Translations under genes and position numbers: made by a program | NCBI GenBank assembly: GCA_016872915.1 | Contig: VGYQ01000006.1 | Span: 1 to 64,000 of the forward strand | Direction: 5' to 3' | Source: Planctomycetota bacterium | GTDB taxonomy: Bacteria > Planctomycetota > Phycisphaerae > Phycisphaerales > SM1A02 | DNA: 64,000 nt | In this document: positions 44,884-50,055 of the stretch, in pieces | Position numbering within the stretch: the first letter of the stretch is position 1 | Layout of the letters: each line of letters begins with the position of its first letter | Notes under the pieces: model-generated | What the model was told of the DNA's origin: nothing | Seen by the model: only the letters and a program-made list of their open reading frames with translations | Databases searched by the model: none

Positions 44884-45561
44884 TCACTCGCGCGGCGGTG
44901 AGCAGAGCGGTCCCCAGTCGTCCACATACCCGTGGTCAATGATCACCTGCAACAGTGCGGGCAGCAGTTGCTGAAGCAACCATGCGGAACGGTCGACTGC
45001 AATCCGATTCTGCGCGCCGCCGTAGGTTGCTGCGCCGAGGGTCAACTGCTGTGCGGTAAGCCCGCTGCGCCAGAGCGATCCAGCAAGGAACGAAGTTGGA
45101 TCTGTGGGCACCACCCTCTCTGCATCTGACGCACCAGACATGCCCACAGCTGCGGCGAGGTAGGGATCCGTCCACATCGGGGCAACACGTTCCCGCAGTG
45201 TCGGCAAGAGCGCGCGGAGCAGTCCATCGCGATCCCATTCGATCGCCTGCCTCGCGAAGGAATCCGTTGCTTCACGGATCGGCAGCGGTGCATGCAGCAC
45301 CGCACTCCAACGCGCAAACAAAGATCCAGCAGCCGCCCACCACTCGAGGAGCTGCGTATCCCGTGCGTCCTGCCCACGTGACTCCGCGGCCGCCATCCAC
45401 GACAGCGCACGATGCACACGAATGCGAATGTCCTCGTACAAGTGCGCCTGCGCATAGAAGTCTCGGCGCTGTTTCCAGAGTGCACGGATCGCCTCGGCTC
45501 CCATGGGTGCGAGCGCCGTCGGCAATGGAATCTCCTCGCGCTTCGGGGAGGGGGAACTCAT
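44884..45561 (-). CDS. hypothetical protein
   Basis: 225-aa ORF, ATGA-coupled to the CrcB-like gene upstream. Confidence 0.65.
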   Translation of the reverse strand: MSSPSPKREEIPLPTALAPMGAEAIRALWKQRRDFYAQAHLYEDIRIRVHRALSWMAAAESRGQDARDTQLLEWWAAAGSLFARWSAVLHAPLPIREATDSFARQAIEWDRDGLLRALLPTLRERVAPMWTDPYLAAAVGMSGASDAERVVPTDPTSFLAGSLWRSGLTAQQLTLGAATYGGAQNRIAVDRSAWLLQQLLPALLQVIIDHGYVDDWGPLCSPPRE

Positions 45562-46406
45562 GGGACAGCCGCCTCGATTTCCTTGTCAAACCGTTCTCGC
45601 AGCGGGAATGCGCGCCGAACAAGCCACCAGACGCTCGCTGCCGCGACGCAGCCTGCGCCGACATTCAGCGCACCCAGTGCGGCAGCATGCCAAAGACTTT
45701 CGCGCGCCAGCTCTGCCATCTCGACGGCAAGGCTACTCACGGTGGTCAGACCGCCGCACAGTCCAAGCAGGATGAGACGATCCAGATGCGCTCGCAGCGC
45801 GGCATGCATCAGCGGCTTGCCGCTCGTGGTCTGCGAAATCAATGCCCGGGCGGCGCCTGCAGCACATGCACTGCCCACAACATTGCAGCAGGTTGTTGCA
45901 CTCCACGCGGGGAGTAAGGCATATTCGAAAGCAAGGACAACGGCTGCTCGCGCCGCACATCCCACCGACCCACCCGCGATGATCATCAGCGCATCGAGAG
46001 CCGCCATCCGCTGCCAGCCGCCACGTGCAGCGATCATGGGAGCAGCCGCCGTTGCTGCCGCACCAGCGCCAGCCGCTGCAAACGGTGCTGCAACGGTCGT
46101 CGTCAGTCCGAGCAGCACTGCCGACGCGCGCTGCTTCACGATCCACAGTGCAACAATGTCGAGCACCATCGCACTGAAGGATGTGAATCCACCAAACAGA
46201 CCGACAAGCAACATGGCTAGCAACGGCTCAGACACCTGTCGAGCTGCGATCACACCGGCCGCTGCACTTCCAAGCACATTGATGAGCGCAATCGCCTGCC
46301 ACTTCCGAATTCCTGCCGCCGCACACGCATCACGCACCAACACACGGAGCAGGCATCCCACGCTGCCTCCCACCGCCGCAAGTCCAATGACGCTCGCCAC
46401 ATCCAT
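45558..46406 (-). CDS. crcB: CrcB/FluC family fluoride channel, tandem single-chain duplication
   Basis: Two repeats in one chain: GGSVGCLLRVLVRD...INVLGSAAAG...VGLFGGFTSFSAM and GGSVGCAARAAVVL...CNVVGSACAAG...LGLCGGLTTVSSL. Confidence 0.85.
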   Translation of the reverse strand: MDVASVIGLAAVGGSVGCLLRVLVRDACAAAGIRKWQAIALINVLGSAAAGVIAARQVSEPLLAMLLVGLFGGFTSFSAMVLDIVALWIVKQRASAVLLGLTTTVAAPFAAAGAGAAATAAAPMIAARGGWQRMAALDALMIIAGGSVGCAARAAVVLAFEYALLPAWSATTCCNVVGSACAAGAARALISQTTSGKPLMHAALRAHLDRLILLGLCGGLTTVSSLAVEMAELARESLWHAAALGALNVGAGCVAAASVWWLVRRAFPLRERFDKEIEAAVP

Positions 46407-46440: not shown

Positions 46441-49400
46441 TCAGGTCGAGAAGTACTTGGCCTGCGGATGGTGAACAATGATCGCACTCGTGGACTGCTC
46501 TGGATCGATCTGGAAGTTTTCGGTCAGTACGCAGCCGATCCGCTCGGGTCGAAGGAGTCGGAACAGCTTTTCCTGGTCCGCCATGTCGGGACACGCGGGG
46601 TAGCCAAACGAGTATCGACTCCCGCGGTACCGCTGCTGGAACAGGCGCTCCACTTGTGGGTCGTCTTCATGCGCGAACCCGAGTTCCGCACGCACACGCT
46701 TGTGCCACATCTCCGCAAGCGCCTCGGCGCACTCCACTCCCATTCCGTGCAAGTAGAGGTATTCGGTGTACTGGTTGCGCTCGAAGAGGGACCGCGCTCG
46801 ATGGCTCGCTTCCGATCCCATCGTGACACACGAAAGACCGAGCACATCCTTCTGTCCCGACGACACAGGGCGGAAGAAGTCGCTGATGCAAACTTTGCGT
46901 CCCGACTTCTGCCGAGGGAACGTGAAACGCTCCACTTCACGGTCACGCTCTTCCGGGTCATACACGATCAGATCATTCCCTTCACTGTTGCATGGGAAGT
47001 ATCCCCATACGACGCCCGGGCGGAGGATCTTCTCGCGTCGGCACTCTTCACGCAGCCGACCAAGAATCGGTTCGACATCCTCAGCAATGTGCCGCTCATA
47101 CGCGCGATCATCCATGTCTCCGCGGCGGAACCCCCACTGCCCGCGGAACAGCGCAGTCTTGTTGATGTAGGGATAGATCAGATCAAGATCGATCCCTTCG
47201 GCGAGCCGCGAGCCGAAGAAGGGCGGATCGGGAATCGTGTGGTCGTGCCGCAGCGCCGACTCGCTTTCACCGCCGACACCTGTCGTATCGGGGAACGCGG
47301 CCGCACCATCACCCGAGGATGAACCACCTGCCGAAGAGCCATCGCCCTCCGCTGTCGCAGCCGCTCGAAGCGCCGTCGCCTTCGCGCGTGCTTCCACGCT
47401 TGCGCGCTTCGCGATTCGCCCGTCGATCTCCTGTTCGATCGTCGCGAGAGTGCCGTTCGCCATGGCTTCACACACGGCGAGCCCCTCGAATGCGTCACGT
47501 CCGTAATACAGCGACCCGCGATAGACCTTCCGCAGGTGTCCCTCGGCGTAGTGCCTCGTGAGTGCAGCACCACCGAGCAGCACAGGCACCTCGATCTCCA
47601 TGCGGTTCATCTCGCGAAGATTCTCCTCCATGACGGTCACGCTCTTCACAAGAAGACCGCTCATGCCGATGGCGTCCGCACCCGTGGCTCGCCATGCATC
47701 CACGATCTGCGTGAGGCTCTGCTTGATCCCAATGTTGTGAACCTTGAAACCGTTGTTGGAGAGAATGATGTCCACGAGATTCTTTCCAATGTCGTGCACA
47801 TCTCCAGCGACTGTCGCCAGCACGATCGAACCCTTTGGCTTTGCATCCGCCCCCACTCGCTCCATGTGCGGCTGCAAGTGTGCAACCGCCTTCTTCATGA
47901 CTGATGCGCTCTGCAGCACGAACGGCAGTTGCATCCGCCCTGCCCCGAAGAGTTCGCCGACTGTCTTCATTCCGACGAGCAGGTGATCGTTGATGATGGC
48001 CAGCGGCGAGTGAACCTGCAGTGCATCGTCCAGTGTTCCTTCCAGGTTTCGATCGTTGCCATCGATGATGTGACGCTGCAGACGCTCCTCGAGCGAAAGC
48101 GTCTCCGTGGCCACCACCTGTGTAGGCGTCGCACCATCAGGAAAGAGGGAGATGAAGTGCAAGAGCGGGTCGAAACTCTCGGGCTGCCCATCCGGGCGAC
48201 GATCGCCTCGGCGATCAAAGATGAGCCACTGCGCTGCCTGCCAGTGCTCAGGGTCGATGCGCGACTGCGGCATGATGCGAGAGATGTGCACGATGGCGGC
48301 GGTCAAGCCGCGCGCACGCGCTTCATGCAGGAACACACTGTTGAGGACCGCCCGCGCTGCGGGCTTCAGACCGAACGAAATATTGGAAAGACCAAGAATG
48401 ATCGAACAGCGCGGGAAGCGTTCGGAGATCAGACGAATGCCTTCGAGCGTCTCCAGTCCAAGCCGACGATCGTCATCATTTCCCGTGGCGATCGTGAAGG
48501 TCAGCGGATCCCACATCAGGTCCCGCTCGTCGAGCCCCCACTTGCGTGTGAAGAGGTCATGGATGCGCTCGGCAATCTGCAGCTTTCGCTCGGCCGTCTT
48601 TGCCATGCCCGCCTGCGGATCCTCATCGATCGTCAATGCCACACATGCGGCGCCGTAGCTCTTGAGCAGCGGACAAATGCGATTCATCCGCTCTTCGCCA
48701 TCCTCCAAGTTGATCGAGTTCACGATGCATCGCCCCGGCGCATGCTGGAGGCCCGCCTCAATCACATCCGCCTGCGTTGAATCGATCATCAGTGGCGCAT
48801 TTACCTGTCGCGCGAATCGCGAAACAACCTCGCTCATATCTCGAACGCCATCGCGACCCACAAAGTCCACACAGACATCGAGCACCTGCGCGCCATCCTG
48901 CAGTTCCTCTTTGCCCATGGCAACAAGTCCATCCCAGTCCTCTGCATCGAGCAGCGTCTTGAACTTGCGAGAACCGTTCGCGTTTGTCCGCTCGGCAACG
49001 ATGAGGAACGAGTTCTCCTGGCGGAAGTCGACTTGTCCATACAGACTGGAGCAGGCCGCCGGCGCATCGGCAGATGCACGGACCGCGCGCTGCGCGCCCC
49101 ACGGCACCAGTTCACGAAGCGCGGCAATGTGTGCCGGGGTTGTACCGCAGCACCCGCCCACGATCCCCGCGCCGAGTTCTTCGGTGAATCGACGAATCGC
49201 GGTGGCGAAGTCAGCCGACTGCAGCGGGTACTCGGTGCGCCCCTCCACCAGCACTGGCAGTCCTGCGTTGGGGATCACTGAAAACGGCCGATTCCACTGC
49301 TTGCTCAGTGCCACCAAGTGTGGCGTCATCTCGACGGGGCCCGTGGCACAATTGAGGCCGAGCGACGCAATCGGCAGCGGCGCGAGGGCGTTCATGACGG

Positions 49401-50055
49401 CCTGAATGTCCGAACCGAGCAGCATCGTGCCCGTGGTTTCCATTGTGACCGAAACAAGCACTGGAATGTCGCGCTCGTTCTTGCCGGATGCGTGAAGCGC
49501 TTCGAGGCACGCCGTCACTGCGCACTTGATCTGCAACAAGTCTTGACAGGTCTCGATCATGAGACAGTCCACACCGCCTTCAATGAGCCCGAGGGCTTGC
49601 TCGCGGTAGGAATCGAGCATCGCTTCCCAGTTGGTTTGTCCGAGCGTGATCAGTTTCGTGCCCGGCCCCATGGATCCTGCCACAAAACGCGGTCGCCCTG
49701 GCTCGGCATACCGCTCGCACGCCGCACGTGCGATTCGCGCGGCGCGCACATTCAGATCCCGAGTCCACGCCACCATCTCTGCATCGAACTCCGCGCCCAC
49801 GAGCTTGTTCGATCCGAATGAGTCCGTTTCCACGACATCCGCTCCTGCCGCGAGGAACGACTCGTGGATTCGCTGGATCAGGTCTGGCCGAGAGCGAACG
49901 AGGATGTCCGTGCAATTGTCACGCCCGAGGTAGTCGGCAGGCGTGCAGTCTGGGCACGAATGAATCGAGGTCCCCATCGCTCCGTCAAAGACCAGCGTTC
50001 GCGCATCGAGATTCGCGAGAAACGTATTCGGCACAGTGCGAAAGGGTAGCACCAC
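46441..50055 (-). CDS. metH: cobalamin-dependent methionine synthase
   Basis: VFDGAMGTSIH, GGCCGTTPAHIAAL, ERTNANGSRKF, DVHDIGKNLVDIILSNNGFKVHNIG (B12 site), C-terminal activation domain RGSRYSFGYPACPDM. GTG start 50055 or 50034. Confidence 0.95.
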   Translation of the reverse strand: MVLPFRTVPNTFLANLDARTLVFDGAMGTSIHSCPDCTPADYLGRDNCTDILVRSRPDLIQRIHESFLAAGADVVETDSFGSNKLVGAEFDAEMVAWTRDLNVRAARIARAACERYAEPGRPRFVAGSMGPGTKLITLGQTNWEAMLDSYREQALGLIEGGVDCLMIETCQDLLQIKCAVTACLEALHASGKNERDIPVLVSVTMETTGTMLLGSDIQAVMNALAPLPIASLGLNCATGPVEMTPHLVALSKQWNRPFSVIPNAGLPVLVEGRTEYPLQSADFATAIRRFTEELGAGIVGGCCGTTPAHIAALRELVPWGAQRAVRASADAPAACSSLYGQVDFRQENSFLIVAERTNANGSRKFKTLLDAEDWDGLVAMGKEELQDGAQVLDVCVDFVGRDGVRDMSEVVSRFARQVNAPLMIDSTQADVIEAGLQHAPGRCIVNSINLEDGEERMNRICPLLKSYGAACVALTIDEDPQAGMAKTAERKLQIAERIHDLFTRKWGLDERDLMWDPLTFTIATGNDDDRRLGLETLEGIRLISERFPRCSIILGLSNISFGLKPAARAVLNSVFLHEARARGLTAAIVHISRIMPQSRIDPEHWQAAQWLIFDRRGDRRPDGQPESFDPLLHFISLFPDGATPTQVVATETLSLEERLQRHIIDGNDRNLEGTLDDALQVHSPLAIINDHLLVGMKTVGELFGAGRMQLPFVLQSASVMKKAVAHLQPHMERVGADAKPKGSIVLATVAGDVHDIGKNLVDIILSNNGFKVHNIGIKQSLTQIVDAWRATGADAIGMSGLLVKSVTVMEENLREMNRMEIEVPVLLGGAALTRHYAEGHLRKVYRGSLYYGRDAFEGLAVCEAMANGTLATIEQEIDGRIAKRASVEARAKATALRAAATAEGDGSSAGGSSSGDGAAAFPDTTGVGGESESALRHDHTIPDPPFFGSRLAEGIDLDLIYPYINKTALFRGQWGFRRGDMDDRAYERHIAEDVEPILGRLREECRREKILRPGVVWGYFPCNSEGNDLIVYDPEERDREVERFTFPRQKSGRKVCISDFFRPVSSGQKDVLGLSCVTMGSEASHRARSLFERNQYTEYLYLHGMGVECAEALAEMWHKRVRAELGFAHEDDPQVERLFQQRYRGSRYSFGYPACPDMADQEKLFRLLRPERIGCVLTENFQIDPEQSTSAIIVHHPQAKYFST

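Follow-up and report, generated by a model that had tools for sequence, protein, structure and literature searches.

A fused two-domain CrcB/Fluc gene in bacteria and its unfused counterparts in related genera

A 64,000-nucleotide stretch of bacterial DNA, called the window here, carries a gene in which two CrcB domains are joined in one chain. Judged by its sequence, this fused bacterial Fluc is genuine, a FEX-like architecture in bacteria accompanied by intermediates and an unusual linker. We consider it fairly likely that the product is a single-chain fluoride channel of the Fluc type that arose by fusion of adjacent, diverged crcB genes, with its halves antiparallel and the pore lined by half 2 as the likelier path. 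Taken by parts, an antiparallel fluoride channel is the most likely product, and it is probably single-barrelled. Fusions are already known in eukaryotes; what is described here is a bacterial fusion and, in relatives at the same locus, stages toward it.

The gene (45558..46406, minus strand) is an intact open reading frame with an ATG start, encoding 282 amino acids. The whole chain matches Pfam CRCB (PF02537) with 89.4 bits (2.2e-25). Residues 1-142 and 136-282, searched by themselves, reach 51.3 bits (1.6e-13) and 50.1 bits (3.7e-13), both above the curated cut-off of 32.9 bits. The two CrcB repeats proposed in an initial annotation are thus present, the match extending to both halves and not to one only, and all the motifs quoted there are found (GGSVGCLLR, INVLG and GGFTSFSAM in half 1; GGSVGCAAR, CNVVG and GGLTTVSSL in half 2). 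The NCBIfam equivalog model for crcB (TIGR00494) gave 54.3 bits for the whole protein, under its threshold of 80.45 bits. The NCBIfam CrcB models that match are all single-domain (104-153 positions), which argues against routine occurrence of the fusion in curated bacterial entries.

Half 1 comprises residues 3-117 (46056..46400, minus strand; TM1-TM4), the linker residues 118-135 (46002..46055, minus strand) and half 2 residues 136-266 (45609..46001, minus strand; TM1'-TM4'). The TM1 Arg (R21/R153), the TM2 Asn (N43/N175) and the T..S of the TM3 break (T75/T221 and S78/S224) are invariant in 17 fused proteins. The complete TTFSTF Phe box, typical of characterised Fluc, is absent. The TM3 motif of half 1, GGFTSFSAMVLD (46158..46193, minus strand), keeps F77 at the Phe82 position and has M80 at the Phe85 position; that of half 2, GGLTTVSSLAVE (45720..45755, minus strand), has lost both Phe (V223, L226) and keeps E229. 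The asymmetry, F..M against V..L, is as the initial annotation described it. An incomplete box lowers confidence in function and leaves family membership unaffected, since natural variants occur among CRCB members. No second CrcB was found in the source genome, a 2.09-Mb draft estimated to be 90.6% complete. No fluoride riboswitch reached threshold in the 64-kb window or elsewhere in that genome, in agreement with the earlier remark that none adjoins the gene, and none exceeded the cut-off in any sampled genome of the family.

The same architecture, with both CRCB matches in one stop-free frame, was found in 17 of the 19 genomes of the genus, which rules out the frameshift or assembly fusion against which the initial annotation had cautioned. 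The gene order in the genus is metH, fused crcB, an ORF of 225 amino acids, an M42 peptidase gene and gcvT. In the window, metH (B12-dependent methionine synthase; 46441..50055, minus strand), a conserved neighbour, lies directly upstream of crcB across a 34-bp gap, and the 225-aa ORF, of unknown family (44884..45561, minus strand), overlaps the crcB stop by 4 nt. This ORF was not detected beside the fused gene at two loci of the genus (L035, L038). It has no Pfam match, and it comes after a fused or paired crcB in five of the family's genera; it is a candidate functional partner of the channel. One member of the genus, G013, lacks crcB, and its metH and 225-aa ORF are only ~140 bp apart (L151:1332-1467). 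A short, weak C-terminal trace of crcB was seen there (L151 1358-1420), and the adjoining M42 gene seems to carry an internal deletion.

By a simple Nei-Gojobori estimate, with synonymous sites near saturation in some pairs, pairwise dN/dS of the whole fused gene was 0.13-0.22, indicating purifying selection; for half 2 and for TM1-3 of half 1 most values fell at 0.1-0.2, and TM4 and the linker frequently exceeded them (up to ~0.5). The genomes of the genus are draft assemblies in many contigs, some of them metagenome bins, from which an assembly or annotation artefact, or a pseudogene in decay, might be suspected. With one architecture at one locus in 17 genomes, free of stops and frameshifts, and dN/dS well below 1, such an origin is extremely improbable.

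Full-length matches to the profile of the fused protein were confined to this genus within a family of 181 genomes and 45 genera. None further was obtained in 343 genomes of the phylum Planctomycetota, a search that a very divergent fused protein could escape. Genus g6 gave matches in two genomes, G023 and G705, and each of these also carries two domains in one frame. Pairs of separate, adjacent crcB genes were seen in 15 further genera of the family; in the remainder of the class, single crcB genes dominate. A further apparent fusion, in G250, proved to be one CrcB interrupted by a change of frame. Against GTDB contigs, the window protein alone found no relative, and the genus alignment retrieved four fused members of the genus and single-domain CrcBs; viral contigs and plasmids yielded none. 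Among the open-access papers retrieved, PMC3755343 reports fused Fluc forms in eukaryotes, and PMC11139923 mentions for bacteria homodimers and pairs alone.

The origin of the two halves was analysed in a tree of 71 sequences, comprising halves and separate genes. N halves from both genera with fusions cluster with the first pair genes of G035, G724, G149, G764, G773 and G777 (96/83); C halves of the window genus cluster with the second G777 gene (97/87). In G777 (L185) the two genes are unfused, overlap by ATGA (4 nt) and occupy the same locus as the window gene, being followed by the same 225-aa ORF, M42 gene and gcvT; the contig ends within the first gene. In G035, G200 and G712, too, the unfused pair is followed by the 225-aa ORF. 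Tree grouping and G777 locus together indicate that crcB1-crcB2 became half 1-half 2 with the order unchanged. From these sequences a recent internal duplication does not seem to be the source of the halves; they are two old paralogues, present as separate adjacent genes in related genera, and the label 'tandem-duplicated' in the initial annotation is therefore misleading. An internal duplication, with all halves in one clade, was 27 log units worse and is disfavoured, without formal rejection (p 0.066). Between one fusion and two (the window genus, g1, and g6), single clades gave p values of 0.45 and 0.29.

The two halves differ strongly in the Arg+Lys bias of their loops. Across all 17 fused proteins the values run from -3 to -5 for half 1 and from +7 to +12 for half 2 (-4 and +10 in the window protein), while single-gene CrcBs are near 0 and unfused pairs are opposite in sign. 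A near-zero bias is expected for dual-topology Fluc, and opposite signs for heterodimeric Fluc. The positive-inside rule accordingly predicts half 1 N-out and half 2 N-in. With the basic loop after TM3 and the basic residues before TM1' both inside, the stretch between them should cross the membrane zero or two times.

How the halves could become antiparallel across so short a linker had been posed as a puzzle. The linker is indeed too short for an ordinary FEX-type helix, and the puzzle is partly answered by the even number of crossings that the loop charges require between TM3 and TM1' and by three linker states among relatives. In G023 (L049:2310-3269) and G705 (L186), TM4 is followed by a clear second hydrophobic helix, giving ~9 TM in a FEX-like arrangement. 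In the window genus TM4 is followed by a linker whose best 14-18-residue segments make poor TM helices; in the window protein the best segment has a dG of 4.25 and low pLDDT, unlike the inversion helix of the nine-TM FEX. In G017 (L047:2245-3069; one draft genome) both TM4 of half 1 and the linker are missing, leaving 7 predicted TM. Half 1 of G017 retains both Phe (TTFSAF). Pro108 in TM4 was considered as a sign of a re-entrant loop and dropped because it also occurs in the first genes of the unfused pairs of G035, G149 and G182.

An AlphaFold model of the window protein, built from 33 rows, had a mean pLDDT of 88.9 and a pTM of 0.85 (an earlier run with five sequences, pLDDT 59, was left out of the conclusions). 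The helices of half 1 are 3-30, 35-55, 60-74/77-89 and 93-117, TM4 being the full helix 93-117, and the linker is disordered at 118-128 (pLDDT <50). Single Fluc subunits match one half of the model with TMt up to 0.86. The nearest PDB fold to the whole chain is Candida albicans FEX (PDB 9op1; 327 columns, TMq 0.55), and this match has an rmsd of 7.6 A, so that the antiparallel packing rests mainly on the charges and the model is no proof of it.

If the halves were instead parallel (8 TM), two whole chains inserted in opposite directions could come together as a dimer of fused subunits with dual topology. The full TM4 helix predicted for half 1 and the lack of an ordinary TM helix in the linker of the window genus would fit such a dimer. 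Insertion both ways is implausible for a half 2 with a bias of +7 to +12, G017 is left with 7 TM after losing TM4 and linker, and engineered parallel Fluc fusions had minimal activity (PMC3755343). We regard the parallel arrangement as quite unlikely, and the antiparallel one is retained below.

Pore positions were fixed with 65 single-domain sequences. Half 2 retains T171 (Thr39), N175 (Asn43) and E229 (Glu88) and has Asn at the Ser108 position; F77 of half 1, the Phe82 equivalent, belongs to the half-2-lined pore, from which the Phe85 (L226) and Tyr104 equivalents are missing. The pore lined by half 1 has lost Thr39 (I39), Phe82 (V223), Phe85 (M80) and Tyr104, and keeps N43, D83 and T103. 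Counted by halves, half 2 is without both Phe, half 1 without the TM2 Thr and the second of its Phe residues, and neither keeps the Tyr104 position. With most canonical residues kept, the half-2-lined pore is the likelier fluoride path, and the half-1-lined pore is probably vestigial. The phrase 'one degenerate half' in the initial annotation thus holds insofar as one pore is degenerate, but the other is also partly degraded, its Phe85 and Tyr104 equivalents being gone. FEX keeps the same pore, made of the half-2 TM helices and the first Phe of half 1, and its N-domain motif, SSFSSM, is of the F..M type (PMC5417652).

Part of the loss is seen outside the fused proteins. The unfused pair of G035 is already asymmetric (F..C and L..L), which makes it probable that some of the pore loss, at least, came before fusion. 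In the unfused pair of G777, whose first gene is cut by the contig end, both readable TM3 motifs are TTMSAV, without Phe. Several pairs whose Phe motifs are complete (G020 to G031) lack Thr39 in both subunits, which makes loss of Thr39 a weak sign of a dead pore.

A less favourable reading keeps the antiparallel fused Fluc fold and supposes that neither pore is intact enough to conduct fluoride fast, the protein serving as a slow leak, a scaffold or a transporter of another substrate. It can draw on the loss of three of the four Phe positions and both Tyr104 positions, Y104I having abolished permeation in Bpe (PMC8315801). G006 has no Phe in either TM3 motif, nor do the readable parts of the G777 pair contain any motif Phe, and G013 has lost the gene except for a possible C-terminal trace. 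Set against this, no other CrcB was found in the genome, the gene is conserved in 17 of 19 genomes and kept by purifying selection, and neither half varies at the TM1 Arg or the TM2 Asn. We judge loss of fast conduction from both pores unlikely, if clearly less so than parallel halves, and prefer a conducting channel.

In the preferred reading, the products of two adjacent and already diverged genes, crcB1 (half 1) and crcB2 (half 2), would formerly have made an antiparallel heterodimer, and fusion of the genes would have placed both subunits in one chain. Half 1 N-out and half 2 N-in could then pair within that chain. Where TM4 and linker are both present, the even number of crossings might come from TM4 forming a hairpin with a short piece of the linker, or from a TM4 that no longer crosses. 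Fluoride would pass through the half-2-lined pore, by T171, N175 and E229, with F77 reaching over from half 1. More tentatively, and we would put this below even chances, the bacterial single-barrelled chain may have arisen separately from that of eukaryotes, half 2 having been reversed without an inversion helix, by a short TM4 hairpin or by deletion of TM4 (G017, 7 TM). If this is true, the TM4 helix of the dead pore was material that could be freely used to solve the problem of topology.

Inverted-repeat membrane proteins are thought to come from dual-topology dimers by duplication, divergence and fusion. A four-helix subunit is not simply joined to its partner, since the added copy would face in the wrong direction. 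Stockbridge et al. (PMC3755343) placed the fused Fluc stage in eukaryotes and used the phrase 'evolutionary gymnastics' for the capture of a helix. The bacterial family studied here contains single genes, pairs of opposite charge, fusions with a linker helix, fusions with a short linker and a fusion with a helix deleted. Several of these stages occur at the same locus, so the order of events, and whether pores were lost before or after fusion, can be tested.

Each half resembles homodimeric Fluc (Ec2, Bpe) in fold, TM1 Arg, TM2 Asn and TM3 break motif, whereas those channels are made by one gene with near-zero bias, a complete Phe box and two equal pores. The engineered concatenated Fluc Laf-TM likewise holds two subunits in one chain, and its antiparallel joining gave full activity (PMC3755343); its linker is a glycophorin TM helix, which the natural window protein does not have. 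With eukaryotic FEX (Fex1p and C. albicans FEX), the protein shares a single chain of two CrcB domains and the F..M motif in the N domain; the better conserved of its two pores appears to be the one that FEX keeps. Agreement with the conserved FEX pore is partial: F77, T171, N175 and E229 are kept here, and the C-domain Phe and Tyr are lost. It departs from FEX in lacking the second Phe that FEX keeps in half 2, and in having, in the window genus, ~18 linker residues without an ordinary TM helix in place of the inversion helix. In a tree that contained no FEX rows, its halves group with the crcB1/crcB2 pair genes of the same bacterial family. Heterodimeric bacterial Fluc pairs of the La1/La2 type, too, consist of two diverged subunits of opposite loop charge; such pairs are common in the same family, one of them at the same locus, as separate genes where the window protein has a single frame.
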